Source of the DNA: Flavobacteriales bacterium UBA4466
GTDB lineage: Bacteria; Bacteroidota; Bacteroidia; Flavobacteriales_D; Sanyastnellaceae
Direction of reading: 5' to 3'
Length of the DNA: 64,000 bases
NCBI GenBank assembly: GCA_905182895.1
Contig: CAJJDD010000008.1
Span: 62,001 to 126,000 of the forward strand
Part shown: positions 6,468 through 53,270 of the stretch, piece by piece
Layout: every line of letters starts with the position of its first letter
Position numbering within the stretch: position 1 is the stretch's first letter
The notes under the pieces: generated by a model
What the model was told of the DNA's origin: nothing
Seen by the model: only the letters and a program-made list of their open reading frames with translations
Databases searched by the model: none
Position numbers and translations under genes: made by a program

Positions 6468-6482
6468 ATCTGCATTGGAAGC

Positions 6483-8060: not shown

Positions 8061-8068
8061 CTAAGCCA

Positions 8069-10086: not shown

Positions 10087-10145
10087 AACTCCAGTAGCCA
10101 GTATCTTGGCATCGTTGTAGCATTGTAACACTAAATAGCAAACAA

Positions 10146-10623
10146 ATGAAAAGATTGAAAGTGGTTCTAATTTTAGTTGGAGCATTAATAATGATATCAT
10201 CCTCATGTAAGAAGAGGAAAGAGATAAAAAAATCTGCGGAAGATCAGACAGAAACGTTAAATACGAATGAAGGAAGAGGCGACCCTTGTTGTGGAAATAG
10301 ACCCCACATATAAGAATATCAAGACGGACAGCTTTACACTTTTAGAATCTAATGTAGAGGGGGATAATCTAATTTTACTTGTAGAGTATGGTGGAGGGTG
10401 TAGAGAACACGAATGGAAACTGAAAACGAATGGTGCTTATGCTAAGAGTCTTCCTCCTCAGATTACGCTAAATTTAGAACATAATGCCAATGGTGATATG
10501 TGTAGAGCTCTTTTAACGGACACCATAGAGTTTAATATAAAGCCGGTGAGATATCCAAGCACTATAGAGTTGGATGTGAGGATACTAGGGTACGAAAAAG
10601 AGGTTAATAGATATACGTATTAG
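10146..10623 (+). CDS. Small lipoprotein, one frame break
   Basis: Starts at the ATG at 10146 with a lipoprotein signal peptide (hydrophobic ILVGALIMISS, then cysteine at about residue 20). The frame stops soon after the A7 run at 10226-10232 and continues in a second frame through LVEYGGGCREHEWKL to the stop at 10623, giving about 158 residues. The GGGCREHEW element and a second cysteine (DMCRAL) may form a disulfide. I do not recognise a characterised family. The distance to the next gene is short (14 bases), so it may be co-transcribed with the protease. Confidence 0.55.
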
Positions 10624-10636
10624 AAAAACAAAAAAA

Positions 10637-12860
10637 ATGAATAGAATTTTAATTGGCCTAGCCGCTTTGATTTTTATGACGAGTAATGCCACAGGGCAGA
10701 TTTCTCAGGGAGGGGAGCCTTATAAGTGGGATATAAAAGATGTAGAAAGATTTAACATAGACTTCCTAGAGTTCGGAGAGTTAGATATGAATTTAATCAG
10801 TCTTCAAGATGCTATAGGAGATGCAGAAAAAGACACTCCTTTTAGATTTGGAATAGAGCACGATGTAGCTTCTTTCTAAGGTAAAATGGTTTTAGAGCTA
10901 GAGAATGGAGATAAAAAATCTTTTGATGTCAGTAAAGGCTGCAGATGCCAGTTCTTTTTCTTTCTTGTTTGACAGATTCGTTCTCCATAAGGGAGCTGAA
11001 TTGTTTATATGGAATTCAGAGCGAACTGAGTTCTTAGGTTCATTCAACTATAAGAATAATAAAAAGGCTGGAGTATTACCAGTAAGTCTCTTACACTCAG
11101 AGGCGGTGGTTATCGAATATTTGGTTCCAGCTGGGGTTGGTGAAGGGGAGTTAAGTCTTGGGTATGGTAGTTCAGGGTTATAGAGCTATAATTAACCAAT
11201 ACGACGATCCAGAAAGAGGGCCTTACGGTAATTCAGGAGCGTGTAACATAAACGTCAACTGTCCTGAAGGAGACAGATTGGCAGATTGAAAAGAAATCAG
11301 TAGCGCTTATTATTAATGGAGGTAACGCAGTTTGTACCGGAGCATTAGTCAACAACACTGCAAACGATGGAACACCTTACTTTCTTACGGCTAATCATTG
11401 CTTAGGAAACCCTAGTAACTGGGTTTATCTGTTTAACCATGAGTCTACAAGTTGTGCGGGGAGCAGTGGTCCTACACTTCAAACTATCTCTTCAGGGGAT
11501 TTAGTAGCAAGCAATGGTGGGAGTGATTTTGCTTTAATAGAATTAAGTTCATCTCCTCCTGCCAGTTACGACGTACAATATGCAGGTTGGGATAGGTCAG
11601 ATGATGAAAGTGTAACTGCAACTACAAGCATTCATCATCCATCGGGAGATGTAATGAAAATCTGTTTTGATGAAGATAATCCTTACCATGCTAACCAAGG
11701 AGGCGCTGCCGTTTGGTATATAGATGAGTGGGAGGATGGTGTTACGGAGGGAGGCTCTTCAGGTTCTCCCTTGTTTGATCAGAATCACCGAATTATAGGC
11801 CAGCTTTATGGAGGATATGCCGCATGCAGTGGGTCAGTAAATAATGGACAAGCTGACTGGTATGGAAGGTTTGGAGTCTCGTGGGATGGGAATAGTCCTC
11901 AAACTAGATTAAAGGACTGGTTAGATCCACAAAACAGCAGTCCATTATCTTTAGACGGATGGCCAGAAGGAGCTCTTAAATAATTATTTTCAGTATCAAT
12001 AAATAATGAAATAGAAGAAAGAGAGTCAAGCTACTATATATCCAACAGCCACTATCTTTAATAACGGTGAAGAAAATCTTACCGAGGCATTGGTAACTGT
12101 TCAATTAAACGGGAATACTTTAGAGCAAGTGAACTGGTACGGAAGTTTAGGGAGTAACCAGAGTGCAGTGGTGAATTTAAGTCCACAGGCATTACAAAAT
12201 GGTGAGAATACGCTCGAGGTATCAGTAGAAATTGAAGAGGATGAAGACGAATCAAATAATTCAAGCTCGTTTACTTTTAACGCCGTAATAATAGAAAATC
12301 CTTCTATTTTTCAGTTAAACTTAACTTTAGATGAGTACCCAGAAGAAACTACATGGGAAGTGAGTGATGGAGCCACTGTTATAGCTAGCGGAGGTCCTTA
12401 TACAGAAGAAAGTTCGTTGGTGATAGAGGAGTTTTGTCTTCCTGAAGGCTGTTTCGTTTTCACTATTTATGATGAGTATGAGGACGGTATCTGCTGTGTA
12501 TACGGTGAAGGAAGTTATACGATAGAGAATCAAGAAGTTGTAGAAGTAGCATCTTCTAATGGAGAGTTTACCTCTGAGGAATCTCAGGATTTCTGCGCGT
12601 CGATAACAGCTGTAGAAGAAGAAAAAGGCTTACAACTTCAATTTTTTCCTAACCCATCTTCAGTTAGATTAACTGTAATGTTAGACCAAGACAATTCTAT
12701 GATTACGGTTTATGATATTTCTGGAAGAACAGTAATACAAATAATGAATTCAGCTTCAGGAATTCTAGAGTTGGATACAGAACATTTAACTTCTGGAACT
12801 TATGTGCTAAGCGTAAGCTCGAATAAAGGAGATTCTAGAGGAGTATTCCTTAAAGAATAG
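10637..12860 (+). pseudogene. T9SS-exported trypsin-like (lysyl-endopeptidase type) serine protease, multiply broken as read
   Basis: Conceptual protein of about 740 residues. It has a signal peptide, a prodomain (LLFDRFVLHKGAELFIW), a chymotrypsin-fold domain with His in TANHCLG, Asp in GGSDFALIEL and Ser in GGSSGSPLFD, CARDB-like and beta-sandwich modules (about 12090-12600), and a type A T9SS sorting domain (FFPNPSSVRLTV to GVFLKE). The reading frame is interrupted by stop codons at 10877 and 11981, and by frame changes near 10910, 11163, 11270 and 12035. Homology resumes after each, and all three catalytic residues are kept. This is more lesions per kilobase than the neighbours, so true decay and poor sequence are both possible. 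If intact, it would be a secreted Lys/Arg-type endopeptidase. Confidence 0.75.
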
Positions 12861-12880
12861 AATGTTAAAAGTATTTATAG

Positions 12881-12913
12881 AAAGCCCCTGTGAGTTTAGT
12901 CATAGGGGCTTTT
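12881..12913 (+). terminator. Intrinsic terminator after the protease gene
   Basis: The inverted repeat AAAGCCCCTGTGA / TCATAGGGGCTTT has a short loop and is followed by a T run on the plus strand. Confidence 0.85.
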
Positions 12914-12953
12914 TTTGTATACTAGATTCTTAACTTATAAGTCTTTCTATATT

Positions 12954-14085
12954 ATGAACGAATTACTCTCTGAATTGTCTAATTACCAGCAGATACTTTG
13001 CGTTACGCTAATAGCAGCAGTAGCAGTTCAGTTGTTTTATCTATTGTTTTTTTACATCAGATTAGTAGTATACAAGCCTAAGAGTTCTCTTAGCAGCGAG
13101 CCACCTGTTAGCATAGTGATTTGTGCTAGAAATGAATCAGAGAACCTGATGAAATACATCCCTATGGTAATGGAGCAGAATTACCCCTTATTCGAGGTGG
13201 TAGTGGTGAATGATAGTAGCTGGGATGATTCAGAAGATATCTTAAAAGCACTGCAGATACGTTATCCTTCTCTTAAAGTAGTGAGGCTAAATGAAGACCT
13301 TCATAGAATGACAGGCAAAAAATTCGCATTAACTATGGGTATTAAAGCAACTTCTCATGAGAGGTTATTACTCACAGATGCTGACTGTAGCCCTCTGTCT
13401 AATGATTGGATAACCCATATGCTCACTGAGGTAAAAGAAGACGAGATAGTTCTTGGGGTCAGTTTAATGGCCAGAGAAAAAGGCGCTTGTAAAAACTTTT
13501 TTCCGATTCGAGTCCGTTCATACTGCAGTAAATTACTGCTCGCTAGCATTAGGCGGTTTGCCTTATATGGGCGTAGGAAGAAATTTATCATATACCAAGG
13601 AAAAGTTCTTTTCAGTAGGTGGGTTTAGAAAGCACATGCACATCACTGGAGGGGATGATGATTTATTTATTAATGAAATAGCTCCGAAATCTACATTTAT
13701 AGTAAGGCAAGATTTAGAAGCTCAAACAACTTCACGTAGCCCTGATAAATTAAGTAAATGGTGGGAGCAGAAGAGAAGACATTTAAACACCTCAGGTCTT
13801 TATAAATTCAAGCATAAACTGGCCTTAGGGATGGAGCCGCTTAGCTGGTGGTTCATGTGGGGAACCGCACTAGTCCTTTTAGTTTTACCCACACCTGCCT
13901 TGTTAGTAATTACTCCTATAGCGTTTAGATATTTGCTTCTATATGGTACATTTATAGCTATAGGTAGAAAATGGAAAGTGTTAGATGCAGTATGGGTTAT
14001 GCCAATATGGGAATTGGTGTTAAACATCGCTAAACCAGCTGTTCTTCTTTCTAATATGATTTCAAAACCGAAAAGATGGATGTAA
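12954..14085 (+). CDS. Membrane-anchored family 2 glycosyltransferase, one frame break
   Basis: About 377 residues from the ATG at 12954. One N-terminal membrane helix (LIAAVAVQLFYLLFFYIRLVVY region) is followed by a GT-A domain opening PVSIVICARNESENL, with VVNDSSWDDS and the acidic LLTDADCSP. Acceptor-side motifs are GGDDDLF and the WWEQKRRH segment (the QxxRW-like region). Two or three C-terminal helices follow. The frame breaks in the T6 run at 13497-13502: before it GACKNFF, after it FESVHTAVNYCSLALGG. The enzyme probably adds sugars at the cytoplasmic membrane; acceptor unknown. Its end overlaps the sigma factor start by ten bases. Confidence 0.8.
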
Positions 14086-14684
14086 CTAAAAATCTCTCAG
14101 ATAAAGGGAAACACGATTATGCTTTAGTTCAAAGAGCAATAAACGACCAAGATCAAAGAGCGTATGCAGAACTCATGGAACGTTACAGAGATTCTATTTA
14201 CTTCATGTTATTGAAGATGGTGAATAATACGGATGATGCCGATGACTTGACTATTGAGGCTTTTGGTAAAGCATTTAAAAGATTAAGCCAGTATACTCCA
14301 GCGTTTGCCTTTAGTACCTGGTTATTTAAAATAGCATCTAATAATGCTATTGATTACATCAGAAAGAAAAGAATTAAAGCCCTTTCTCTAGACCAAGGAT
14401 ATACAAATGATGATGGAGACAGTATAGGCTTCGAAGTAAAAGACGATAGTCTAGACCCAGAAGAAGCTTTCGAGAAAAAGCAGAGAATATTAAAGATGAG
14501 AGAAGTAGTGTCTAAGCTTAAGCCAAGGTATAGAGAGTTAGTAGAAATGCGCTACTTCCAAGAGCTAAGCTATGAAGAGATTTCTAAAGAATTAGATATT
14601 CCTTTGGGTACCGTAAAAGCTCAATTATTCAGAGCTAGAGAATTTCTGTATAACTTAATGAAGCATACTAAAGAAACCATTTAA
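14076..14684 (+). CDS. ECF-family RNA polymerase sigma factor
   Basis: 202 residues. Region 2 runs from about residue 30 (YAELMERYRDSIYFMLLKM to DADDLTIEAFGKAFKRL), with the -10 reading segment AFSTWLFKIASNNAIDYIRKKR. Region 4 is RYRELVEMRYFQELSYEEISKELDIP, with GTVKAQLFRARE as the DNA-reading helix. An acidic linker of about 35 residues separates them. No anti-sigma gene is adjacent; it sits translationally coupled between a glycosyltransferase and rsmG. Many Bacteroidota carry such a housekeeping-like ECF factor, so constitutive expression with that operon is plausible. Confidence 0.88.
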   Translation: MDVTKNLSDKGKHDYALVQRAINDQDQRAYAELMERYRDSIYFMLLKMVNNTDDADDLTIEAFGKAFKRLSQYTPAFAFSTWLFKIASNNAIDYIRKKRIKALSLDQGYTNDDGDSIGFEVKDDSLDPEEAFEKKQRILKMREVVSKLKPRYRELVEMRYFQELSYEEISKELDIPLGTVKAQLFRAREFLYNLMKHTKETI

Positions 14685-15317
14685 TGCCTTCTAATATCAG
14701 TTTAATAACTAAATACTTCCCTAATCTTAGTGAAGTTCAGATAGAACAGTTTTCAGCGTTGCAAGGCTTATACGAGGAATGGAACGCTCAGATAAATGTC
14801 ATCTCACGTAAAGATTTAGAAAATCTATATGAAAGGCATGTCCTTCATTAATGCTATAGCCAAAGTAAATGATTTTTCAGCGGGCAGTAAAGTACTTGAT
14901 GTAGGAACTGGAGGAGGTTTTCCAGGTGTTCCGCTAGCCATACTTTACCCAGAAGTTTCATTTCATCTAGTAGACTCTATAGGGAAGAAAATAAAGGTGG
15001 TAAACGCAGTCAGTGAACAGATAGGGCTAATGAATATAACGGCTGCTCATGGTAGGGCTGAGGATGTCTCTGGTAAGTTTGACTTCGTAGTGAGTAGAGC
15101 AGTAGCTAAATTGCCAGTTTTCATGACGTGGGTTCAAGGGAAATTCGAAAAGAGATTTCTAAATCCTAAACCCAATGGTGTTCTCTTTTTAAAAGGTGGT
15201 GATTTAAGACAAGAGATTAAAGAAGTGAATACTACAGTAGACGAGTATGAGCTATCTGCTCATTTCGAGGAAGAATTCTTCCAGACCAAAAAAGTGCTCT
15301 ATATCCGCGTTGTTTAG
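14684..15317 (+). CDS. rsmG: 16S rRNA (guanine-527-N7)-methyltransferase RsmG, one frame break
   Basis: RsmG makes m7G527 in 16S rRNA. The ATG at 14684 overlaps the sigma-factor stop (TAATG). The N-terminal helix region ends in QINVISRKDLENLYERHVLH, typical of the family. The frame then stops near 14850 and resumes with NAIAKVNDF, the SAM-binding VLDVGTGGGFPGVPLAILYP, the conserved HGRAED, and VVSRAVAKLP. One missing base near CTTCATTAATGC restores a protein of about 211 residues, the expected length. Loss of function is possible but a sequencing error is likelier. Confidence 0.88.
14756..14764 (+). repeat. GCGTTGCAA word, copy 2
   Basis: Inside rsmG as GCG TTG CAA (Ala-Leu-Gln). Together with its left flank, TTTTCAGCGTTGCAA is identical to the copy at 37447. 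Confidence 0.8.
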
Positions 15318-15325
15318 CGCATAAA

Positions 15326-15355
15326 AAAACCCTTTCAGGAAACTGAAAGGGTTTT
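15326..15355. terminator. Bidirectional intrinsic terminator between rsmG and rplI
   Basis: A perfect 13-base stem AAAACCCTTTCAG / CTGAAAGGGTTTT with a four-base loop lies between converging genes. An A run on the left and T run on the right allow use on both strands. Confidence 0.9.
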
Positions 15356-15379
15356 AAATCTTATTTTTAGTAGGTGGAA

Positions 15380-15826
15380 TTACTCAGCTACTACTTCGAA
15401 AGGAACTACTACAGATACTTCTTTATGAAGCTTTATTGTTACTTCGTACTTTCCTAATTCTTTGATAGTGTCTTCCTTTAAAGAGATGCTCTTTCTGTCT
15501 ACGCTGAATCCTTTAGCTGTTAAAGCTTCAGATAACTGAATGCTATTTACTGAACCGAAGATCTTTCCGTTCTCACTAGCTTTAGCTCCTATACTTAGAG
15601 TTACTTTCTCCATTTTGGTCGCTAACGCCTCAGCATTACCTTTTATCTTGAGTTCTTTATGAGCTCTCTGCTTAATGTTTTCAGAATGCATTTTTAGTGC
15701 AGACTTAGTAGCCATTTTACCAAACCCCTTAGGTATTAGGTAATTTCTAGCGAAACCTGGCTTTACATTCACCACGTCATTAGCACTTCCTACGTGATCT
15801 ACGTCTTGTAATAAAATTATTTCCAT
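15380..15826 (-). CDS. rplI: 50S ribosomal protein L9
   Basis: 148 residues, full length. The N-terminal domain carries the signature VDHVGSANDVVNVKPGFARN with NYLIPKGFG. A long connecting helix (about 40-75) is followed by the C-terminal rRNA-binding domain (LSIGAKASENGKIFGSV). It is the last gene of rpsF-rpsR-rplI. Confidence 0.97.
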   Translation of the reverse strand: MEIILLQDVDHVGSANDVVNVKPGFARNYLIPKGFGKMATKSALKMHSENIKQRAHKELKIKGNAEALATKMEKVTLSIGAKASENGKIFGSVNSIQLSEALTAKGFSVDRKSISLKEDTIKELGKYEVTIKLHKEVSVVVPFEVVAE

Positions 15827-15832
15827 GGTTTC

Positions 15833-16092
15833 TTATTTCATTAAATCAGTTACATATGGTAAAAGAGCTAAGTGACGAGCCTTCTTAATTGCCTGACCTA
15901 CTTTTCTCTGATACTTTAGAGTAGTTCCAGTTAATCTTCTTGGAAGAATCTTACCCTGCTCATTCACAAGCATAGATAAATAATCTGGATCTTTATAATC
16001 GATGTACTTTATTCCATTCTTCTTGAAGGTAACATTTTTTTATAGGTTTCAATATTAATAGGATTTAGATATCTAACGTTCTTATCTGCCAT
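15833..16092 (-). CDS. rpsR: 30S ribosomal protein S18, frame broken in an A7 run
   Basis: S18 binds the central platform of the 30S subunit with S6. The gene starts at the ATG at 16092 with [19 protein letters not shown]. The frame is lost in the seven-base A run at 16035-16041 (minus strand); adding one A gives [17 protein letters not shown]. The rest reads [35 protein letters not shown] and stops at 15833. The protein is about 86 residues, standard for the family. Because S18 is essential and single-copy in this context, this break is the clearest evidence for homopolymer errors in the sequence. Confidence 0.93.
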
Positions 16093-16107
16093 AATCTTAG
16101 GGTTTTA

Positions 16108-16467
16108 TTAAGCTTCTGTAGAGCTTTTAGAGTTAGACTTAATTTTAACTTTTCTTTTTTCAGCATAATCTACATGGTGCCTGTCCATTCTAGTAGTAAG
16201 GAATCTAAGCACACGCTCATCTCTCTTAAACTCTACCTCGAAAGGATTAATAATAGCTCCTGGTGCTTCAAACTCCATAAGGTAGTAGAATCCAGTAGAT
16301 TTTTTCTGAATAGGGTAAGCTAATTTCTTTAATCCCCAGTTCTCATTTTGGCTGACCTTACCACCGTTGCTTTTTACAAAGTCTTGATACTTCTTTACTG
16401 CTTCCTTTGCCTGGTCATCTGACAAAACGGGAGTTAAAATGAAAACAGTTTCGTATTTGTTTAACAT
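16108..16467 (-). CDS. rpsF: 30S ribosomal protein S6
   Basis: 119 residues, opening [19 protein letters not shown], with the conserved [24 protein letters not shown] core and [17 protein letters not shown] near the end. A basic and serine-rich tail follows. It is the first gene of the S6-S18-L9 operon; 15 bases separate it from rpsR. Confidence 0.97.
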
Positions 16468-16499
16468 ATGTTTAAAAAATTAAATTTTAAAAAGGAGCG

Positions 16500-16507
16500 C
16501 AAAAGTA
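16500..16507 (-). promoter_or_regulatory. Probable -7 element of the rpsF operon
   Basis: The minus strand reads TACTTTTG, a full match to TAnnTTTG, about 33 bases upstream of the rpsF ATG. No exact TTG lies at the right distance (a TTTCGG is nearby), so only the -7 half is supported. Confidence 0.5.
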
Positions 16508-16570
16508 GGGAATATCTGTGATTTACCGAAATTACTGGACCTGTAAATATCTCTACCAATTGCATTGAAT

Positions 16571-16603
16571 AAAAAAGAGCTACGAAAATCGTAGCTCTTT
16601 CTA
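16571..16603 (-). terminator. Intrinsic terminator downstream of secDF
   Basis: A perfect 12-base stem AAAGAGCTACGA / TCGTAGCTCTTT with a three-base loop lies just after the secDF stop and before the rpsF promoter. T residues follow on the minus strand. Confidence 0.88.
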
Positions 16604-16624
16604 AATATGCTGAGTAATTTTCGT

Positions 16625-19600
16625 CTAGTTTTTAACTGACTTACTGAAATCAATTACTGAAGGAGTAGCTATAAATATAGAACTATATGTTCCTACTACC
16701 ACACCCACCATCAAGGCAAAAGTAAATCCTCTAATAGAATCACTACCCAAAATAAAGATAGATAACAATACTACAAATGTACTAGCAGAAGTGTTTATAG
16801 TTCTACTTAACGTACTGTTAAGTGCTTTATTAATCACTTCTTTCTCATCTTCTTTCTTGTAGATTCCTAAGTACTCTCTAATTCTGTCGAATACTACAAC
16901 GGTATCATTTATAGAATAACCAATGACAGTTAGAATGGCGGCTATGAATGCTTGATCCACTTCTAGTGTAAACGGTAAGAATAAAGATCCTATTGAGTAT
17001 ATAGATAATACGATTATCACATCATGTAGCATAGCTAATAAGGCGCCTAATCCATACTGCCATTTTCTAAATCTTAAGAAGATATAGAAGAAGATAATCA
17101 GTAATGCTATAATAGTAGCGTTTCTAGCATCTCTTCTAAAGTCATCAGAGATAGATGAATCTACATCTCTAGTCTCAGGGTTAGTGAAGTTAGTAAGGTT
17201 CATTCCTTCTAAGGTAGAAGTGATGAGCGCTCTAGTTTTTTCAGAACCTGTGTCTTTATCTTCTAAAAGATAATCAGTAGTAATTCTGATTTTGTCTTTA
17301 GAAGTCCCTAAATCCTTTACAGTAATACTGTTTGGTTTGAAAGCCGTACTTAACTCCTTTCTTATCTCATCAGTATTGATAGCCGTTTCGAATTTGAAGG
17401 TGTTTTCTCTACCTCCGTTGAACTCTACACCGTAGTTAAGTCCACCGCTGAATAATGCAACTAATCCTAGCGTTACTACTACTCCAGATAAAATGTAGAA
17501 TTTCTTTCTGTTATCTACGAATCTGTAGTTGAGGTTAGTGAACCAGTTCTGAGTAGTAGGAGTAGAAAATGCGATATCTTTCTTCTTATCCATTCTATTC
17601 CAGAAAATTAATCTAGTAATAACAATAGCTGAGAATAAGGAAGTGAAAATACCTATGATTAGCGTAGTCGCGAATCCCTTGATAGCTCCTGAACCGAATA
17701 CGAATAGAACGATAGCTGTTAAAAGCGTAGTAATGTTAGCATCGAAAATAGCAGAGTAAGCTTTTTGGTAACCTTCAGTAAGAGCTACTTTTAGCCCTTT
17801 ACCCATTCTCATCTCTTCTCTAATTCTTTCGAAGATAAGAACGTTAGCATCCACGGCCATACCAACTGTTAGAACTATACCTGCTATTCCAGGCAAAGTA
17901 AGTGTTCCTCCTATAGCGGCTAAACCTCCTATTAATAAGAAGATGTTTAAGACCAGTGCGATATCAGATACCACACCTGCTCTACTGTAGTAGAATAACA
18001 TGTAAGCCATAATTACTAACAATGCGATTATGAATGACCAAGCACCAGCACTAATGTTTTCAGCTCCTAATGTAGGACCTACGATTTCTGTATTTACAAT
18101 CTTAGCAGGAGCAGGAAGTGATCCAGCTTCTAATAAGTTAGCTAAATCAGTACCTTCTTCTACTTGCTGAGAATAAGAACCTGTTCCCATAGAGATAGAA
18201 GAACTACCATTTAAGATAGGACTATTTACAGAAGGTGCACTGTAAACTAAACCATCTAAAGTGATCGCTATTGCTTTGTTTGGTCTAGAAGGATCTCCAT
18301 CGTAAGCTGCTTGAGTCATTTTACCCCAAGCTTGAGCTCCCTCACTATTCATTTGCATAGAAACTTCTACTCCACCGTATTGGTCGAATGTTTGTATTGC
18401 ATTGGTAATAGTTCCACCATTCAATTCAGATTTCTCTCTTCTGCTCACATCGTTTAATGCATAAAGCGAATAGAACTCAGTTCCATTATCACTCACACTA
18501 GGCTTAGCGTCCCATCTTAAAAGAATATTTTCTGGGATTATAGAAGAAGAAAACAATCGTCCTCCATTATCCTTAGCGTCTAGTACTTCAGAGATTCTGT
18601 CTTTTCCTTCTGAAGTAACTCTGAATAATACAGAAGATCTAGGAATTCCTTGACCATTACTTCCGTAGTTACCCGAATAGGAAGCTATTGGATATCTTCT
18701 TGTGTAGATGTCACTGTCAATAGTTCTGGTTACAGATATTGAGTCATTTCCATCGGCATCTTTTAAAGGCTCATTCGTACTTAAGTCTAAAGCAGGAATA
18801 CTATCTGTAGTGAATAGCTCAGCTGTGTAAGCTGAAGGGTCTTTGTACTTAGCTACCACTGAATCTAATTGCTCTAGGTATTGGAATGCTGCTTTTCCGC
18901 CTACTATCTCAGTGTTTTCAAACACAGGCCAGAATTCCAATTCAGCAGTTTCCTTAATAAGTTTTATAATTCTATCTGGATTATCTACACCTGCTAATTC
19001 TACTAAGATTCTTCCTGTAGAAGATTGTCTTTGTATGTTAGGCTGAGATACACCGAAACGGTCAATTCTCTGTCTTAAAATATTCTCAGTATTATCAATA
19101 GCTGATTCAGCTTCTAATCTAAGGATTTCTATGACATCGTCATCCGTTTTTGCTGTCTGAAATTTCTCTGTATAATCTCTATTGATAAAAATCTTAGGAA
19201 GTTTTTCTTCTCCAGCTACCTTATTATCTGACCAAGCGTTAGCAAATAAGGTGATAAAATCATCGTTAGAACTTGTCTGAGCTTCTCTAGCCTGAGCCAT
19301 AGTAGCCGTAAAAGCAGGGAACTTCGATTTCGCACTTAAATTTTCTACTAATTCTGGTACAGATACCTCTAAGGTAACACTCATTCCACCTTGAAGGTCA
19401 AGACCTAAATTTAACTCTTGGTCTTTTACCTCTCTGTAGCTATGCCCTAATACAGGGTAAGCTTGACTACCAGCACTGTCTATTAAGAATTTTCTCGTTC
19501 TTTCCTCCGCGGTCATCGTGCTTAACGAATCAGCATCCGAAGCTTCTATAGCAAACGCTGCCGCTTGGTCTTCGAATCTACTTGAGAAAAAGTTAAAAGA

Positions 19601-19666
19601 TAATTGGTACAGGCAAGCTAGAACTAGCAACACTGTAAAAATCCAAATCGCACTTCTATTTTCCAT
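16625..19666 (-). CDS. secDF: SecDF fusion, protein translocase subunit
   Basis: 1013 residues, intact. SecDF uses the proton gradient to help pull Sec substrates across the inner membrane. The SecD half has a first membrane helix, the large periplasmic P1 region, and the membrane block with [26 protein letters not shown]. The SecF half starts near residue 700 with [18 protein letters not shown] and ends with [18 protein letters not shown], the paired Asp/Arg motif. The fused form is usual in Bacteroidota. Long low-similarity stretches in P1 are normal for the phylum. It is transcribed alone, with its own promoter and terminator. Confidence 0.96.
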   Translation of the reverse strand: [1013 protein letters not shown]

Positions 19667-19693
19667 TGTTTATGGTTTAATTTTAAGGAGCCG

Positions 19694-19724
19694 CAAATAT
19701 AAAAATACACGGCTTAATAGCCAA
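19694..19724 (-). promoter_or_regulatory. secDF promoter
   Basis: On the minus strand TTG (19722-19724), 20 bases, then TATATTTG (19694-19701), a complete Bacteroidota-type promoter. The secDF ATG is 27 bases further on. Confidence 0.75.
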
Positions 19725-19997
19725 TATCAATTTTAATCTGATAATCAACGTTTTAGTTAAAATATTCCACTATTAGCAACCTCAATTAGACAGGTTTATA
19801 CTTATTGTGCGTAGGTTCCGTTACATTTTTGCGAGACTATTATTATAGTTCGTTAAAACCATTATTCGTTTTTATTAATAGAGGTGAAATCACGACTCGA
19901 GCATAAAAGAATGAGAGGGTTAATTATTTTGGAGTTTTAACTTAGAGTAAATAGATGTTTCTAGTACTTTTGAGATTCATCTTTACGCGTAGCAATA
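19725..19997. other. Intergenic region between secDF and the DUF4159 gene
   Basis: The whole gap (19667-19997) is AT-rich and non-coding. Besides the secDF promoter it holds TACTTTTG at 19965-19972, a -7 match for the plus-strand gene at 19998, without a convincing TTG partner. I see no RNA gene or repeat. Confidence 0.5.
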
Positions 19998-42739: not shown

Positions 42740-43818
42740 TTACTCGCAGTTTATTTCTAATTCATCTATCCACTCACCAAGCAGGTCTATACTTTCTTGA
42801 TGAATAATAGTTCTTCCCATTAAAGGCATTCTCTGTGATGCTTCTGTAGTGTTCATTCTAAAATACATCATAGATCTGGCCGCATTTCCTGGTGCTACTA
42901 CATAAGTTTGAAATGGATCTATAGGCTCTGCAGGTTCTATGCACAGACCTAAGTTTTCCATTAAAACAGTTTCATTCCATGCAAAACGCATAGGTCTGTA
43001 GCTGCAGTGACTATCTTCTCTATGGCAGTGTGCACAGTTCATATCTAAATAAGAAGTTACTCTATCTAATTTTGGTAGACTTTCATCAGTCCAGTCGGCT
43101 ACTGTTTCTATGCTGGCAGGAAGATCATCTTCTAGGAGACCGAAGTCTACCCATTTTTCAAGTTGGTTCAAAGCACCGTCAGAATAAGAGTATGTTTTAT
43201 TCAAATTTTGTGGTTTGGGTCCTATTGGGAGAGCGTCATTGGTTACTTTATGACAGGTGAAGCACTCTGTTTCAGAAGGGATTCTGTAAGTGAGTGAGAT
43301 AAGTTCACCATCATCATTAATAAACTCTAAATCTTTATTCTGTAAGTTTAAGTCAAACACAGCTTCTTCATATTCAGGGCCTTTCTCAGCGTATTGCTTA
43401 CCTAATTCCATTAAAGCACTTTTAAGTGCTAAAACAGCCGCGCCGCCAATACCTAATCCTTTAAGCTGCGAATCAATCATACCGTTTGCTACTCTAGAAA
43501 TCTTTTCATTTTTCTTACATTGTAAGTAGCTTTAGCGTCTTCAGGCATCCAAATAAATCTTTTTTTATGAGCGTAATCTGAGAAAAGAGGAGTGATTACA
43601 TCATAAGGTAGAATGTCATCTGTTACATTTTGCTCTTTCATATCTCCTATGAAAAAGTCATAATCAGATAAGTTTGGTAGAGGGAATTGGTTGAAATTGA
43701 ATTTACCTGTAACCGTTGTGCTGCAGTCTTCAGGAGATATGTCGTCATCGCGCTTACATTGCGTAAGCGTAAAGATAACGGCCAATACGGCTGCCAAAAC
43801 TATCTCGATTCGGTTCAT
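42740..43818 (-). CDS. Diheme-type c cytochrome, SO2930-like, one frame break
   Basis: About 359 residues. A lipoprotein-type signal peptide (VIFTLTQC) is followed by a domain with the SO2930-type opening FPLPNLSDYDFF. Two CxxCH heme motifs are ECFTCHKV and NCAHCHRE, and GPKPQNLNK separates them as in that family. The frame changes near 43490. Between the start and the first heme, the segment DSQLKGLGIGGAAVLALKSA is not what I expect from the family. It ends CEPAEPIDPF-type and RMPLMGRTIIH. It is probably exported and electron-carrying; the partner is unknown. It lies 22 bases upstream of the ASPIC gene on the same strand. Confidence 0.75.
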
Positions 43819-45527: not shown

Positions 45528-45700
45528 GTTTCTCTCACGGCTAATACTAACCGTGCCGTTCATCTCATCGCCTACGACCGCAGAAGCGGAGGTTACGTTA
45601 ATTGCGCCAGCCAATGTGTTTTTACCAAACAGGATGCCCTGTGGCCCTCGAAGTACTTCAACCTGCGCTAAGTCAAACAGACCAGTTCGGACCTGACGAC
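45528..45700 (-). other. Fragment of a TonB-dependent receptor plug domain, foreign-looking
   Basis: On the minus strand the frame reads SRQVRTGLFDLAQVEVLRGP then QGILFGKNTLAGAINVTSAS and GDEMNGTVSISRERNS, the plug-domain hallmark of TonB-dependent receptors (VEVLRGPQGxLFGKNTxAGAINVT). No other part of a receptor is nearby; the frame ends against the GNAT start on one side and near 45700 on the other. By my count 45541-45660 is about 51% GC, well above its surroundings, and the wording resembles proteobacterial receptors rather than SusC-type proteins. It is either a relic of transferred DNA or a chimeric join in the assembly. The edges are approximate. Confidence 0.8.
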
Positions 45701-45997
45701 TCTCCTTTATACATGGAGTGGGTTTCTGAAAATGGATTTAGATTTATTTCTGATTTTAAGCAAGGTGAAATTACATTAGATGCCTCAGAGGTTATAGACG
45801 CAGAGGGAAATGCCATTTCAGAAGAGGTGAGTAAAATCACTTTCGATATTACTATGTATGACTTTAACTTAATCGTAGCGCCTGAGAAGAATACGATGAT
45901 TAAAATAACTGAGAATAAAGCTATTTTTATAAAAGCTAAGCATCGTCAAGAGGTGTTATTCAAAAGACATCTAATAAACACATCTGCAAATAACTAA
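45690..45997 (+). CDS. Short conserved-looking hypothetical protein, 5' end lost
   Basis: About 100 residues from DDSPLYMEW, then GEITLDASEVIDAEGNAISE and KITFDITMYDFNLIVAP, ending KRHLINTSANN. No start codon can be assigned, because the upstream sequence is the TonB receptor fragment on the other strand. A second, decayed copy lies at 48314-48453. It ends two bases before the T9SS type B gene, so the two probably formed one transcript. Family unknown. The residues read through the TonB fragment (MRQPMCFYQ onwards) should not be counted as part of this protein. Confidence 0.55.
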
Positions 45998-45999
45998 GC

Positions 46000-48246
46000 A
46001 TGAATAAATTACTGCTGTTGATAAGCTTGCTATGCGCGAGCTTTTGTTCGTTAGGTCAGGAGATAGCTATAGCTAACGGCTCTGTTCAAGGGTGTGGAGG
46101 ATTCCTCTTAGATACAGGAGTAGCTTTTAGTGATTATCAAAATAACGAGAATTTCACCATGACTCTGTGTGCTGAAGCTCCAGAGACTATATTAAATCTT
46201 TACTGGAATTCATTTAATCTAGGAACAGGTGACTCTATGACTATTTATGATGGAGACGACACAAGTGCACCAGAAATAGGAGTTTTTATAGGAACCGATC
46301 TGCAAACAACGGATGTGACGAGTTCTATAAATGGATGTCTGACACTGGTATGGAATAGTGATGCGGCAGATACAGGTAACTTCAGCGCAGAAATTGCTTG
46401 CGGTACTCCATGCATTAGACCTGTAGTAGGCGTGAACATAGATTCAGAATTACCATGGAGGATATGTGTAGATGAAGAAATCACCTTAGACGGTTCTCCT
46501 ACTGTTTTTGCCGATGGAACGTCTATCGCTACTCACACTTGGGACTTTGGAGATAATACTACAGATATCGAGAGTTGGCCTTCAGTTACTCATTCATATT
46601 CAGTAGCTGGAGCGTATGTTATTCAGTTATTTGTGGTAGATGATAACAACTGTAATAGTGGGAATACTATAGATGTGCTAGTAGAAGTGAGCACGACTCC
46701 GTCTTTTGCAGGTACATCGGGTGATGTTTTATCCTGTTTAGGAAGTGAAGTCTCTCTAGAGGGAATGGTCACTCCGGTAGAGTGGAGTACTGCGCCTAGC
46801 GCTAACTTTGGAGGGGCGTTATTTATCCCAGATGATCAGAGTCAATGCTTTACCTCGGAAATTTTAGTGACGGGTTTTTTAGCAGGTCAAGAAATCATCC
46901 AAGAATCGGACTTAATTAATTTCTTTATCAATTTTGAACACTCATATATGGGAGATTTGACGCTAACTTTTCTCTGTCCTAACGGTCAATCCTTATTAGT
47001 TCATGCTAACCAAGGAGCAGGAACATTTTTAGGGGAACCAGTAGATGATGATGGCTCTCCAGATTTAGAGGGTGTTGGGTATGATTATTACTGGGCTCCT
47101 GATGCTACTTTAGGCACATGGGGAGAAGAATCTGGAGGAACATTAGCGTCTGGGACTTATTCTAGTGAGAGCCCGTGGTCTAATTTAATAGGATGTCCAT
47201 TAAATGGAATATGGGCTGTGGAGATATGCGATAATTTAGGGTCAGATAATGGATTTATCTTTGACTGGTCGCTGGCTTTCGATCCGTCATTGTATCCAGA
47301 GAACTTATCCTTTACTCCTAGCATAGGTGCTGATTGCGATAGTACATTCTGGACGGTGAATGATGGTCCTATTGCTACGCTAGAAGACTGTAACGATATG
47401 GTGACAGAATTTACAGAAGCTGGAGAGTATCTTTATACTTTTCATGCAATGGATAACCATGGATGTGAATATACCACTGATGTTAATGTGGAAGTTTCAG
47501 AATTAGCAGTCTCGGCTGATGGTGATTTCACAATCTGTCCAGGACAGTCAGTAAGCATGAATAGTTCAGTTGGCTTTAACAATAGTGTTCTACCTAATAT
47601 AGTCTATGAATGGACACCTGGGGTTTTTTTAACAGCTGATGATAATGTGAATCCTGATGTTTCTGATGTTACTGGTGTCACGACATATACATTCATGGCA
47701 TATCCAGCTGGTTTTCCTGAGTGTGCTAGCTCCACAGAGATTACTGTTATTCCTATAGATAGTCCGGTGGCAGATATAGCTGCTACAGAGTGGTGCCCCG
47801 GTGATCAGTCTATTCTTTCTGCGGTCAATACTAACCTTTTAGATTCAGTTAATTGGACATTACTAGACCCCCTAGAAGGGCTAGGGAATGAGCCTATCCT
47901 GATAGCTACAGAGGGTGGTACATTCGTTCTTACTGCATTTGGATGTGGTATTCAAGTTACGGACACTCTGGTCGTTCAGGAAGTGCCATGCGATGTATTC
48001 ATTCCTAATATTTTCACACCTAACGGTGATGAATTCAATAATACTTTTCAAATAGAAGGAATAGAGTTTCAGAATAATGCTCACTTAGTAGTCTATAATA
48101 GATGGGGAGGAATTGTATTTGAGGACACCAAATATGATGGTTTATGGGATCCTAAAGGAGGAGAAGTTTCTGATGGCACGTATTTTTATGTGCTCACATT
48201 GGAATCAGGAGAGGCATTTGATGGAACCATTACCATTTTGAGATAA
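46000..48246 (+). CDS. T9SS type B surface protein with CUB-like, PKD and P domains
   Basis: 748 residues, intact. Signal peptide to about residue 19 (SFCSLGQ); CUB-like domain about 24-130 (VQGCGGFLLDTG, CLTLVWNSDA); PKD domain about 140-230 (THTWDFGDNTTDIESWP); a proprotein-convertase P domain about 270-430 (HSYMGDLTLTFLCPNGQSL, NGIWAVEICDNLGSDNGFI); further PKD-like modules; and a gliding-motility (CHU_C) type B sorting domain about 665-748 (NIFTPNGDEFNNTFQIEG, YNRWGGIVFEDTKYDG). It would be exported by the T9SS and fixed to the surface. Close paralogue of the gene at 48562. It is preceded by a terminator-free junction with the hypothetical gene and followed by its own terminator. Confidence 0.9.
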   Translation: MNKLLLLISLLCASFCSLGQEIAIANGSVQGCGGFLLDTGVAFSDYQNNENFTMTLCAEAPETILNLYWNSFNLGTGDSMTIYDGDDTSAPEIGVFIGTDLQTTDVTSSINGCLTLVWNSDAADTGNFSAEIACGTPCIRPVVGVNIDSELPWRICVDEEITLDGSPTVFADGTSIATHTWDFGDNTTDIESWPSVTHSYSVAGAYVIQLFVVDDNNCNSGNTIDVLVEVSTTPSFAGTSGDVLSCLGSEVSLEGMVTPVEWSTAPSANFGGALFIPDDQSQCFTSEILVTGFLAGQEIIQESDLINFFINFEHSYMGDLTLTFLCPNGQSLLVHANQGAGTFLGEPVDDDGSPDLEGVGYDYYWAPDATLGTWGEESGGTLASGTYSSESPWSNLIGCPLNGIWAVEICDNLGSDNGFIFDWSLAFDPSLYPENLSFTPSIGADCDSTFWTVNDGPIATLEDCNDMVTEFTEAGEYLYTFHAMDNHGCEYTTDVNVEVSELAVSADGDFTICPGQSVSMNSSVGFNNSVLPNIVYEWTPGVFLTADDNVNPDVSDVTGVTTYTFMAYPAGFPECASSTEITVIPIDSPVADIAATEWCPGDQSILSAVNTNLLDSVNWTLLDPLEGLGNEPILIATEGGTFVLTAFGCGIQVTDTLVVQEVPCDVFIPNIFTPNGDEFNNTFQIEGIEFQNNAHLVVYNRWGGIVFEDTKYDGLWDPKGGEVSDGTYFYVLTLESGEAFDGTITILR

Positions 48247-48271
48247 TACAAAAACTTTTAATAAAAAACTG

Positions 48272-48305
48272 AAGGGAGTCGAGCTTAGCTTGACTCCCTT
48301 TTTAA
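48272..48305 (+). terminator. Intrinsic terminator of the first type B gene
   Basis: The stem AAGGGAGTCGAGC / GCTTGACTCCCTT with loop TTA is followed by a T run. A nearly identical terminator follows the second copy. Confidence 0.88.
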
Positions 48306-48313
48306 TTTGTAAT

Positions 48314-48453
48314 ATGAGTGTTTTAGGTGCCAAATAACATTGGATACCTCAGACGGCAGTGCTAATTTTGGAGATATAAACAAAATCAATTTCGATGTTG
48401 CTCAGTATGATTTTAATCATATCAACTATGGTTCTTCCTGTATTGTGCCTTGA
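48314..48453 (+). pseudogene. Decayed copy of the hypothetical gene at 45690
   Basis: From the ATG at 48314 (MSVLGA), then after a frame change QITLDTSDGSANFGDINKIN and FDVAQYDFNHINYGSSC. It aligns with GEITLDASEV, KITFDITMYDFN of the gene at 45690 but lacks its ends. The copy sits between two paralogous T9SS genes, showing that the hypothetical gene was part of the duplicated unit. One internal frame break and missing termini mark it as a remnant. Confidence 0.65.
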
Positions 48454-48561
48454 TTTTGAATATCAATTCAATTATCAACGTAAACAAAGTGATATTGGTT
48501 CATTAGCTGTTTTTTTCGTAATTTCCACCTAGTATTATAAACCATAATTAAAAGTACTCAA

Positions 48562-51332
48562 ATGCAATCGAATTTTTCTCTCTTGAAAGTTCTGCTAGGG
48601 TTTAGCAGTATACTAATCACATGTTTATTCGACTTAAATGTGAACATTTTAAATGCTCAATGTTGTTCATATAGCATTTTAATGTCTGATTCTTTTGGGG
48701 ATGGATGGGATGGGTCTGCAGTAAGCGCTCAAGTAAATGGAGTAACGATAGCAACAGGAACTGTAGTAGCTTCTAGCGCAGCATATACATTTGAAGCATG
48801 TACGGGGGATAACATAACAATTTTTTACACCAGTGGTGGTGGAATTTGGGAAGGGGAGATCTCTTATTTTCTTACCTACAACGGTACACAGCTGTTCAAT
48901 TCAGGAACGAATCCTCTTATAGGCATAAGCTATAGTGGTATTTCAGATTGTGACTTAGAGTTTGAACCATCTCCGACATCGTGTTTAGGCATGGATCCTA
49001 TTTGCACAGCTGATGGCCTTTTCTTTACAGCGAGTTCTAATGGAGGTTTTGCATCTAACTCAATCCCGGTAATAATTATGGTTGTTTATTTTCTTACTCC
49101 TAATCCGACATGGTATTATCTGGAAATAGAAGATTCTGGAAATATTGACATGAACCTTAATGCTCCGCAAGATATAGATTATGCTATATGGGGCCCTTTT
49201 GATGATCTAGATGATGCTTCAGGGGGCATGTGGTAGCTTAGGTCAAGCACCTACTTCTGCCAATGGAAGCCTTATTGATTGTAGTTTTTCCGCCACAGCA
49301 GATGAGTATCCTAGCATACCAAATGGACAAGATGGAGAGGTCTACGTTATGTTAATTACTAATTACGCAAGTGTAATTCAAAATATTACTTTAGACCAAA
49401 TCGGAGGAACCGGATTTACCAATTGTGATATTGTATGTGAACAAGAGCCCGAATATGAAGTTGTCGAGATTTCATGCTTTAACGAATGTGATGGGGGAAT
49501 AATCATTGAGGGTACCGGTTTAGCTCCGTTTGATTACTCACTAGAAAATTCAATTGATAATTCTGTAATAGCTGCAGTTACTGATAGTTCAATAGAACAA
49601 ACTTTTAGTGACCTGTGTGCCGGTCAATACATTATTTATGTTACAGATTCAGATGATTGTACTTCTGAAGTTTCTTTCCAGCTAGACAATCCTGAAGATC
49701 TAACAATTTTAACCGAAGAGTTAATGGGTTGTGATTCTGTGGATTATATGGGTGTCACTTACATTTATAGTCAAACAGTGGTAAGTAGCTTTCTTTCTGT
49801 AAATGGCTGCGATTCTATAATAACAGCAGAAATCACTGTGATTCCTGTGGTGACAAATGTTGTAAATGTGAGTATTTGTAATGGAGAAACCTATACAGAT
49901 GGAACTAGTAATTATACTGCTACTGGTATCTATGAAGATTTTTATACTTCAGCTCTTGATTGTGATTCTATAGTAGAAGCAGCATTAAAAGTAATGCGAA
50001 CCAATAGTGGATGTGAGCATAGATTCAGAATTACCATGGAGGATATGTGTTGATGAAGAAATTACATTGGACAGTTCTCCTACTTTTTTTACCGAAGGAA
50101 CTTCTTTAGCTAACTTTACTTGGGATTTTGGAGATAATACGACAGACGTTTTAAGTTGGCCGGTAGTTACTCATTCATATTCAGATGCTGGAGCATATTT
50201 TATTCAGCTGTTTGTGGTAGATGATAACGGCTGCAATAGTGGTAACGCTATAGATGTGTTAGTAGAAGTGAGTACGGCTCCATCTTTTGAGGGCACGTCA
50301 GTCGATCTTTTATCCTGTTTAGGTAGTGAAGTTTCTCTAATGGGAATCGTTAGTCCGGTAGAGTGGATCACTTCACCTAGTTCTTCATTCACGCCTAGTA
50401 TAGGTGCTGACTGTGATAGTACATTCTGGACGGTGAATGATGGTCCTATTTTTACACTAGAAGATTGTAACGATATGGTTACAGAGTTTACAGAAGTTGG
50501 AGAATATCTTTATACTTTTCATGCTGTGGATAACCATGGATGTGAATATACCACTGATGTCAATGTGGAAATTTCAGAATTAATAGCCTCGGTAGAAGGA
50601 GATTTTAGCATCTGCCCAGAACAGTCAATAAGTATGAATAGTTCAGCAGAATTTAATAATAGTGCTTTGCCGAACATAATCTATGAATGGACACCGGGAG
50701 CTTTTTTAACAGCTGATGATGATGTGAATCCTGATGTTTTTGATGTTACTGAAACTACTGAATATACATTCACTGCATATCCAGCTGGTTTTCCTGAGTG
50801 CGCTAGCTCTGCAGATATTACTATTTCTCTTCTAGATGGTCCGGTGGCAGGTATAAATGCTACCGAATGGTGTCCTGGTGATCAGTCTCTTCTTTCCGCT
50901 GTGAATTTTAACCTTTTAGATTCAGTTAATTGGGCTCTAGAGAACCCAGATGGGTCCCTTCTAGGTCTAGGGAATGAGCCTATCCTGATAGCTACAGAGG
51001 GTGGTACATTCGTTCTTACTGCATTTGGATGTGGAATTCAAGATACTGCTACCCTGCCTGTTCAGGAAATATCGTGTGATGTTTTTATTCCTAATATTTT
51101 CACTCCTAATGGCGATGAATTCAATAATACTTTTCAAATAGAAGGAATTGAGTTTCAAGATAATGCTCACTTAGTGGTCTATAATAGATGGGGAGGAATT
51201 GTATTTGAGGACACCAAATATGATGGTTTATGGGATCCTGAAGGAGGAGAAGTTTCTGGTGGTACGTATTTTTATGTGCTCACATTGGAATCAGGAGAGG
51301 CATTTGATGGAACCATTACCATTTTGAGATAA
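48562..51332 (+). CDS. T9SS type B surface protein, second copy, with different N-terminus and no P domain, two frame breaks
   Basis: About 920 conceptual residues. The N-terminal part (signal peptide, then CCSYSILMSDSFGDGWDGSA, FTASSNGGFASN, SprB-like repeat YEVVEISCFNECDGGIIIEG, and the CDSI/CDSV repeats) is unrelated to the first copy. From about 50003 on, the sequence matches it closely: SIDSELPWRICVDEEITLD, PKD, and the CHU_C sorting domain to the last codon. The P domain (about 170 residues) is missing. Frame changes lie near 49220 and 50000. The second lies exactly where the homology begins, so it could mark a real fusion point or a read error. Confidence 0.82.
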
Positions 51333-51354
51333 TACAAAAACTTTTAATAAAATT

Positions 51355-51387
51355 AAAGGGAGTCGAGCTTAGCTTGACTCCCTTTTT
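51355..51387 (+). terminator. Intrinsic terminator of the second type B gene
   Basis: Same sequence as the terminator at 48272: AAAGGGAGTC then GACTCCCTTT around the TTA loop, with a T run. It is part of the duplicated segment. Confidence 0.88.
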
Positions 51388-51398
51388 AATTTTGTAAC

Positions 51399-53270
51399 AT
51401 GAAATATTTTGATGGATTAGTAGAGCTCTCTAAGCTATTGGCAGAAGAGAAGGCTTACGAGGTGAAGAAATTAGAGGAGCTGCTAACGAATAAGAGCATT
51501 CATGAAAGGAAAACGTTAGGCAAGTGTTTATTTCCATTAAAGATGAGTGATAATTCTTATGGCCTAGGAGGGAATTTAGAGATCACATTTGACTTAGATG
51601 CGGAATTAGACAATTATAGATTTAATGTTGGAGGAGTAGTCTCTGTTTTCTATTCTGAAGATAACATAAAGAGTAATCATGTGCTTTCTGCCACGATTAG
51701 GAATGTGAAGAAAGGAAAGCTTGTCTTACTTACTAATTCAGATGAATATCCTGATGAATTAGATAAAGGAAGAATAGGAATAGATCTAACAGTAGATGAC
51801 AGAACCTATAAAGTTATGGAGCACACTTTAAATGTTCTGATAAACTCAGAGGATAATCATCTGATCAGCTTTTATTCGAAAAATAGAATAAACTAGATGA
51901 CTTAATTCTTAAAGGTAAATTTGAAAGCCCTAAGCTAAACGAATGGCAAAATGCTGCGGTAACTGCCAGTATGCATTCTAAAGACTTTACTATAATTCAT
52001 GGTCCTCCAGGAACAGGTAAAACCACCACGCTAGTTCAGTGTGTGAAGCAAGCAGTAAAGAGAGAAGGAAGAACCTTAGTTACTGCTAGCAGCAATGCTG
52101 CTGTAGATCATTTAGTCAAATGTATGATGAAAGAAGGGCTAGATGTGGTAAGGATAGGAAATATAGCCAGGGTAGATGAGGAAGTACAGAAGGCTCAAAT
52201 AGATTTAAAGATTCAGGAGCAGCCTGAATATAAGTTCATCAAAGACTTGAAAAAGCGAGCTAAAGATGCTAGAAAAAAGGCGGAGAAATATAAACGTTCG
52301 TTTAACGCTGAAGATAGAGAGAATAGAAAGATGTGGTATAAAGAAAGCAGAGATCTTAATTCAGGATGCGCGAAAAACCGAGAAATATCTCATCCAAAAA
52401 ACAATAGAGTCTGCCCAAGTAATAGCCACTACTCTAATAGGGAGTGATAGTGAAGTTTTACGTGAGTTTAAATTTAAAACAGCGTTTATCGATGAGGCTG
52501 CTCAGGCGCTAATCCCGGCTGCTCTTACTCCATTTAAAAGAGCAGAGAAGTTAGTTTTAGCAGGAGACCCTTTTCAGCTTCCGCCATTGGTTAAGAATAA
52601 TCAAGTGGCAAAAAAAGGACTGAGCACTTCGTTATTAGAGCTCATTATGAATAAGACAATTGGCAGGACTCAAAAATTAAAAACTCAATACAGAATGGAT
52701 AAGTCTATTATGGCTTTCAGTAATTCTCAGTTTTATGAAAATGAATTAGAAGCACATCCATCAGTAAAAGAGCATGGATTTAAATCTGACGGTTTTATGC
52801 CTGTAGAATTCATAGATACTGCTGGATGTGGATATAATGAGACTTTTTCCAAAAGCGGGAAAAGTCTAAGAAATGAGAAAGAGGCCGAATTAATTAAAGA
52901 AAGATTGGGTGAGCTTTCTCAGTACATAGACGGTCTTTCTCTAGGGATCATATCACCATATAGAGGTCAAGTAAATTACTTGAAGGACTCTCTTCCTGAA
53001 TTTGAAAATAATATAAACACTATAGATGCATTTCAGGGGCAGGAGAGGGATGTGATAATAGTTTCTCTGGTGCGTAGCAATGATGAGTTAATTATAGGCT
53101 TTCTTAAAGACTACAGAAGGATGAACGTAGCTATGACGAGAGCACGAAAGAAATTAATTTTAATCGGAGATAGCGCTACTGTAGGTGCAGATAGATTTTT
53201 TAGCGAGTTTTTAGATTTCGTAGAGAAAAGCGGTTCATACAGAACTGCCTGGGATTTCCCTTCTTTTTAA
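51399..53270 (+). CDS. SF1B (UPF1/IGHMBP2-like) helicase, two frame breaks
   Basis: About 624 residues, cytosolic. An N-terminal nucleic acid-binding barrel (SYGLGGNLEITFDLDAEL) is followed by the helicase core: Walker A HGPPGTGKTTTLVQ, Ia TASSNAAVDHL, II AFIDEAAQALIP, III LAGDPFQLPPLV, IV TQYRMDKSIMAFSN, V NTIDAFQGQERDVIIVSLVR, and VI NVAMTRARKKLILIGD. The frame changes near 51890 and 52360. UPF1-like proteins unwind RNA or DNA with 5'-to-3' polarity. This class is common in Bacteroidota and its role is unknown. It lies alone between the duplicated T9SS genes and the converging sugar transferase. Confidence 0.87.

Follow-up and report, generated by a model that had tools for sequence, protein, structure and literature searches.

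Two neighboring genes in the window, which is the whole stretch of 64,000 nucleotides analyzed here, are best read as two old forms of an exported surface protein, a type B substrate of the type IX secretion system, that would belong to one conserved slot. The slot is made up of a GNAT gene, a small gene, an adhesin gene, and a helicase gene, and its ancestral occupant would be a form with CUB, PKD, and P domains, represented by copy 1. Within the genus, the unit of small gene and adhesin may have been duplicated in tandem, and in the second copy the front would have given way to DNA from a giant Cys-Asp-Ser repeat adhesin, comprising its N-terminal module and the region upstream of it, which produced the fusion form represented by copy 2. 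Sorting of this pair would have left the CUB form in strain ASP10-05a, the fusion form in UBA1958, and both in the window genome. In the lineage of the window genome, the fusion form would then have undergone an in-frame deletion of 504 bp that removed the P domain, probably nested in a domain that closes without it, and gene conversion would have recopied the gene end; the two proteins would probably use the same export machinery and carry different binding modules. As one account of the locus, this combination of old tandem, front replacement, differential sorting, P-domain loss, and end conversion has, by our estimate, roughly two chances in three of being correct. The features on which it rests are listed in Table 1.

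Table 1. Features of the adhesin slot, with positions counted from the first nucleotide of the window.
Feature	Position	Strand	Basis or remark
Small gene upstream of copy 1; 5' part (to about 45664) replaced by foreign-looking DNA	45602..45997	+	Comparison with ASP10-05a
Copy 1: CUB, PKD, PKD-like domain (likely interrupted by P domain), Ig-like, type B signal	46000..48246	+	748 aa, intact
CUB domain of copy 1, residues 23-136	46066..46407	+	VIA-align Z 14.0, rmsd 1.9 over 108 residues to PCPE-1
504-bp segment carrying the P domain, missing from copy 2	46804..47307	+	Alignment; PF01483 28.7 bits (cut-off 21), residues 310-427
Second gene-conversion tract, copy 1 side	47881-47926	+	Partner about 50967-51012 by offset; copy 1 equals copy 2 at 12 sites
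Type IX secretion type B signal domain of copy 1, residues 667-744	47998..48231	+	PF13585 73.4 bits, TIGR04131 49.6 bits
Gene-conversion tract, copy 1 side	48180..48267	+	Partner about 51266-51351 by offset; copy 1 equals copy 2 at 17 variable sites
Terminator-like inverted repeat and T run after copy 1	48265..48308; second copy 51349-51392	+	Repeat family; judged by eye
Decayed second small-gene copy, between the adhesins	48325..48416	+	Local alignment to the ASP10-05a (L032) small gene
Copy 2 upstream region and N-terminal module	48459..50012	+	Homologous to giant adhesin 5' end, G000:C8 18137-19983, minus strand
Copy 2 coding region, three frames in this assembly	48562..51332	+	ORF list
Copy 2 part homologous to copy 1: PKD, PKD-like domain (likely closed), Ig-like, type B signal	50005..51332	+	Alignment, Pfam
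Junction lacking the P domain	50384..50385	+	Alignment
Type IX secretion type B signal domain of copy 2	51084..51317	+	PF13585 72.9 bits, TIGR04131 49.9 bits
Conserved helicase closing the slot, frame-broken here	51399..53270	+	Single ORF in L032 and L033

Contig C8, which contains the window, is one of 27 in a genome bin of 1.65 Mb that is 63% complete. Reading frames were evaluated by comparing C8 with the syntenic contig of a relative, from which 88 ORFs of 150 aa or more were taken; 10 have no match, and the 78 with a match comprise 43 that are intact in one frame, 29 that are frame-broken, and six that are only partly covered (within the window, 22 are intact and 14 broken). The helicase (SMUBP-2-like) falls into three ORFs here and is one 625-aa ORF in both relatives. 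Copy 2 itself is spread over three frames (48562-49236, 49211-50053, and 50007-51332), a point absent from the earlier note on this DNA; given the frequency of broken ORFs, these breaks are no proof of a pseudogene. Besides the P-domain loss, internal gaps of more than 40 aa were found in one of the 78 matched ORFs (a 53-aa patch), with the six partial ORFs not examined further. Two further irregularities were observed upstream of the adhesins. The 5' end of the small gene is replaced by about 125 bp (45540-45664) with 51% GC, compared with 37.5% for the window, and without homology to the ASP10-05a locus, in which the small gene is an intact 128-aa ORF (L032 6612-6998). The minus strand of this segment reads like the plug of a TonB-dependent receptor (QVEVLRGPQGILFGKNTLAGAINV), and the segment is probably a foreign patch in the assembly. 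At 43377-43515, about 130 bp without clear homology to the relative interrupt a gene that is one ORF in L032 and in which cytochrome-c-like CxxCH motifs were recognized by eye.

The direct repeat that the earlier note placed at 46420-48305 and 50003-51387 is real, and nucleotide alignment of the window sets its limits at about 46419-48317 for copy 1 and about 50000-51393 for copy 2. It was said to be almost without change, which is wrong. Identity between 46424-48308 and 50005-51392 is 82-87%, with 298 of 360 positions identical before the gap in copy 2 (82.8%) and 479 of 573 after it (83.6%), and the copies are near-identical in two short tracts only (on the copy 1 side, 47881-47950 with 69/70 identical positions and 48101-48246 with 143/146). 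Both copies do share the CHU_C end (PF13585 above its cut-off in each) and the terminator-like repeat behind it (95% identity), as had been noticed.

The N-terminal parts of the two proteins differ, also in agreement with the earlier reading: copy 1 begins with a CUB fold and copy 2 with a module shared with a giant repeat adhesin. Hydrophobic N-terminal starts were recognized by eye in both. The description of the copy 1 front as CUB-like is justified by its fold, placed on a predicted model with a mean pLDDT of 59.5, but not by the Pfam CUB family (PF00431), for which it scores 15.9 bits against a cut-off of 21.4. Farther along copy 1 are a PKD domain (residues 154-225) and the P domain, which belongs to PF01483 by its profile score and whose model aligns with furin and Kex2 (Z 10.0-10.2), the alignments ending at residue 431. 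In copy 2, the Pfam profile search found no P domain. The type B signal domains of both copies exceed the curated cut-offs of TIGR04131 (35 bits) and CHU_C (27 bits). On another contig of the window genome (G000:C4 103000-115000, L071), a further cluster of proteins shares about 40% identity with the region of copy 1 that contains the PKD and P domains, and one of these matches has internal stops. For the copy 2 front, the label SprB-like is backed by no Pfam match. Pfam includes a SprB repeat family, and neither of the two front proteins (P0003 and P0004) matched it at E up to 0.01, or at E up to 10, a range in which the HMMER filters remove most matches above about 0.1; there was only a weak match to SdrD_B, below the cut-off. 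P0003, the first part of the front, has matches at E 1e-5 or better, mostly weak, in 25 of 60 relatives, so this module is not confined to the genus.

Alignment and Pfam agree with the earlier observation that copy 2 lacks the P domain. The missing piece, with the exact breakpoints given in Table 1, is in frame and near the proposed size of about 510 bases. Its proposed origin, a deletion between CCTAG ends, is ruled out, since the sequence of copy 2 retains both motifs (50376-50380 and 50394-50398). In the UBA1958 gene, where the P domain is present, the edges of the P segment encode SSSF and DSSF, an imperfect repeat, and a single SSSF remains at this site in copy 2; a loss between such short imperfect repeats would fit these sequences.

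The P domain of copy 1 likely sits inside a PKD/Ig-like domain, which its removal would close. The first PKD domain of the same protein aligns over both halves flanking the P domain when these are joined (hhalign P-value 1.5e-4, probability 51.5%), although joining them raises the score only slightly above that of the first half by itself (27.9 versus 26.6), a point that was counted against nesting. In copy 2, a Pfam PKD-like match crosses the junction at 18.1 bits, below the cut-off of 27, and residues 91-192 of the model, with the junction at residue 128, are placed on one Ig domain (Z 8.7, rmsd 2.5, 84 aligned residues). The AlphaFold models are weak, with a mean pLDDT of 58.9 for copy 2 and a similar value for copy 1, and the nested arrangement is therefore likely, short of proven. 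Structural use of these models was confined to the placement of the CUB domain, the P domain, and one Ig domain. Their Foldseek ranking, mostly Ig-domain arrays with low TM-scores, was set aside.

Two congeners have the two architectures separately in the same slot, an outcome that the earlier note had named as refuting its reading. In Cryomorphaceae bacterium ASP10-05a (LAQC01000008.1, locus L032), the order is GNAT, small gene, CUB form, and helicase, with nothing between the last two. UBA1958 (DDEI01000006.1, locus L033, and contigs C38 and C24 of genome G003, listed as 99% complete) has the copy 2 form with the P domain, split over two contigs with a gap between them: the gene starts at the end of C38 after the GNAT and small genes, and the remainder, including the P domain, stands at the start of C70 and is followed by the helicase. 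No close CUB front was found in this genome, the best match having 33% identity. In a fourth congener (G001, 80% complete), there is no close adhesin copy (best match E 2.5e-71, 37% identity) and neither a GNAT nor a helicase match, absences from which no conclusion is drawn at this completeness. Among 22 more distant Flavobacteriales loci, 10 have the order GNAT, CUB-form adhesin, helicase (L034, L037, L038, L039 (at contig ends), L040, L041, L043, L044, L047, and L048), and the other 12 are without one or both neighbors, in some cases because contigs end. The P region is present in all 13 loci that were aligned (of 24) and in copy 1, and is missing from copy 2 only. These patterns suggest that the CUB-PKD-P form is an old, probably ancestral resident of the slot, and that the fusion form, as far as it is known at this slot, is particular to this genus. 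Of the genomes compared, only that of the window shows the loss of the P domain, which may also be a misassembly.

Divergence values suggest that the two forms are older than the genomes that carry them. Flank genes differ by 6.4-9.6% among the three genomes and the small gene by 8.0-11.9%. Before position 47862, copy 1 differs from the ASP10-05a gene by 6.5-7.0%, within the flank range, and from the UBA1958 gene by 17-21%, indicating that the forms predate the species split; the duplication and fusion would thus also predate these species. Copy 2 differs from the UBA1958 gene by 11.4% after the P site (47308-47862) and by 20.4% in the PKD segment before it. In this PKD segment, copy 2 is nearer to copy 1 (17.4%) than to UBA1958, which was counted against our account. 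In a tree with outgroups, copy 2 and the UBA1958 gene group together with a support of 99/100; they also share the fusion junction and a 9-bp difference. Copy 1 and ASP10-05a are not recovered as a group, which was counted against our account; ASP10-05a instead falls nearer to the pair of copy 2 and UBA1958, with values (88/71) short of the mark for support. Over two backbone segments, 62 sites pair copy 1 with ASP10-05a and copy 2 with UBA1958, and four and four sites favor the other pairings; this count is unrooted and gives no clade of copy 2 and UBA1958 by itself, which the outgroup tree does. The P segment of UBA1958 differs from that of copy 1 by 16.8%, the same as the rest of the gene, so a recent copying of this P domain from the CUB form is unsupported.

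The DNA between the two adhesins speaks for an old tandem of the whole unit, small gene plus adhesin, followed by differential loss. The remnant of a second small gene found there aligns with the L032 small gene at a score of 28.5, which none of 300 dinucleotide shuffles reached (best 18.0). A decayed small gene in this position suggests that the whole unit was once present twice and that the front of the second adhesin was replaced. In UBA1958, the score of the spacer before the fusion form against the small gene was reached by 12 of 300 shuffles; an ancestral tandem thus rests mainly on the window, and replacement of the CUB form remains a rival. The source of the new front appears to be related to a giant adhesin on the same contig, about 90 kb away and outside the window (G000:C8 about 5623-19983, minus strand), in which tens of Cys-Asp-Ser repeats of about 51 aa were observed and which is split into many frames here. 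Its 5' end and upstream DNA resemble those of copy 2 (two blastn matches, 74.7% and 72.6%). The upstream DNA alone (48459-48551) scores 34.0, compared with 19.5 for the best of 300 shuffles, and identity over the initial 284 bp of the mature region is 65.5%. In UBA1958, the front of the fusion form (end of C38, L067) and that of the genome's own giant adhesin (end of C24, L101) are identical at 271 of 284 positions (95.4%), starting about at the beginning of the mature protein, whereas the other five pairs among the four fronts reach 65-77%; the exchange in UBA1958 is therefore recent. Upstream of this edge, only 182 of 355 positions agree and the signal peptides are unlike. C38 and C24 thus show the pattern taken as a sign of domain exchange, in which one genome has nearly the same module at two loci and the similarity ends sharply. 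Both contigs stop at the same point, as would be expected where two sequences become identical.

Gene conversion between the copies is recorded in two runs of sites that are shared by copy 1 and copy 2. The 17-site run was reached in 0.0002 of 20000 permutations and the 12-site run in 0.008. The longer tract spans the end of the secretion signal and extends into the terminator region; judged from these runs, gene conversion keeps the secretion-signal ends of both copies alike. A gene for PorP/SprF (PF11751) is matched 15 times in the genome and not once on contig C8, which makes both copies orphan type B substrates. Most likely, the type IX system exports both proteins, which then remain attached to the cell surface as putative adhesins that differ in their tips. 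In F. johnsoniae, three of 12 type B substrates are without a downstream porP/sprF, adjacency being common and not defining, and the three orphans use one shuttle; signals of high identity can cross-talk (PMC12618676, in the part available). In the present locus, conversion recopies the secretion and shuttle-recognition signal, and both proteins therefore probably leave through the same machinery. We infer that conversion of the ends keeps the two copies on one shuttle.

The process is domain shuffling of a known type, and the case is well resolved. The earlier note was right about the kind of process (duplication, deletion, and fusion of surface adhesins) but not about the implied order, namely a recent local duplication in the window genome followed by deletion and a new fusion. 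The two near-identical tracts between the copies would agree with that order, but the fusion in UBA1958 is the same and still includes the P domain, and copy 2 groups with the UBA1958 gene, by which a recent local duplication is ruled out; we give this order almost no credence. An unlikely but more serious alternative dispenses with the ancestral tandem. In this view, the fusion form had a single origin within the genus and was carried into the slot by recombination, where it took the place of the CUB form in UBA1958 and was inserted beside it in the window genome. Cassette exchange is clear from the near-identical UBA1958 fronts and the conversion tracts, and the spacer of UBA1958 has no significant small-gene remnant, both of which agree with such a spread. 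However, the divergence of copy 2 from UBA1958 is not below that of the flank genes, unlike what a recent transfer would give, and the remnant in the window implies that a second small gene was once present.

Two other explanations concern the state of the sequence itself. The contig may join CUB-form and fusion-form strains of one population, or may have dropped the P domain of copy 2. Such a misassembly agrees with the noise of this assembly, with its many frame-broken and partly covered ORFs and foreign-looking patches such as 45540-45664. Yet a difference of about 17% outside the tracts shows that the copies are not a single locus read twice, a separate decayed small gene is present in the spacer, and the conversion tracts link both copies. 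Moreover, a clean in-frame internal loss of 168 aa is unlike the usual error of this assembly, and misassembly is accordingly considered improbable, more so than spread by recombination. It is somewhat less far-fetched, and compatible with the other accounts, that copy 2 is a dead gene, its three frames and P-domain loss being decay. The reading frame changes near 49211-49236 and again where the fusion was made (49992-50007); these changes, together with probable compensating shifts near 49070-49095 that were recognized by eye against the giant adhesin, are in line with decay, but the downstream part of 441 aa is fully open, the P domain was lost in frame, and neighbors such as the helicase are equally broken here and intact in both relatives. 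Copy 2 would probably make a protein.

The locus provides a step-by-step, relatively dated case, from uncultured marine Flavobacteriales, of how Bacteroidota surface proteins may change their binding ends and keep their export signal. It also suggests a rule by which tandem orphan type B substrates keep their signal ends alike through gene conversion because the shuttle protein is shared. More speculatively, the slot may be a site of module exchange, at which fronts would be traded with those of a giant adhesin located far away, the edge of the exchange lying where the mature protein begins, the nested P domain would be a removable insert that leaves a closed domain, and gene conversion would tie the signal ends together, with one shuttle for two differently tipped adhesins; this wider picture is possible, with the odds against it. 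A literature search found no title on this locus.

Several known systems resemble parts of this locus. The giant Cys-Asp-Ser repeat adhesin of the same contig shares its 5' end and upstream DNA with copy 2 (73-75% identity) but continues into tens of repeats and a C-terminus of its own, whereas the tail of copy 2 is that of the CUB form. In the GhpA grappling-hook protein of Aureispira, for which structures have been solved, residues 5607-5885 are matched by the family profile of the CUB form (479-751, E 2.2e-51); this best stretch covers only the Ig-like and C-terminal regions of a protein of 5898 residues. The type B substrates of Flavobacterium johnsoniae, including the orphans, have the same C-terminal signal (TIGR04131, CHU_C) in the available parts of PMC12618676 and PMC9143113, and neither copy has porP/sprF beside it, like those orphans. 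Here, the two genes form an adjacent pair with ends homogenized by gene conversion and unlike fronts, an arrangement not described in the portion of PMC12618676 at hand. Surface proteins of Porphyromonas gingivalis are likewise mosaics with alternative domain forms among relatives, and gene conversion has been proposed for them (PMC5266723, as far as its accessible part goes). That case concerns gingipain, fimbrial, and other surface genes in strains of one species, whereas the present one extends over three congeneric genomes and includes tandem retention and the loss of a probably nested domain.
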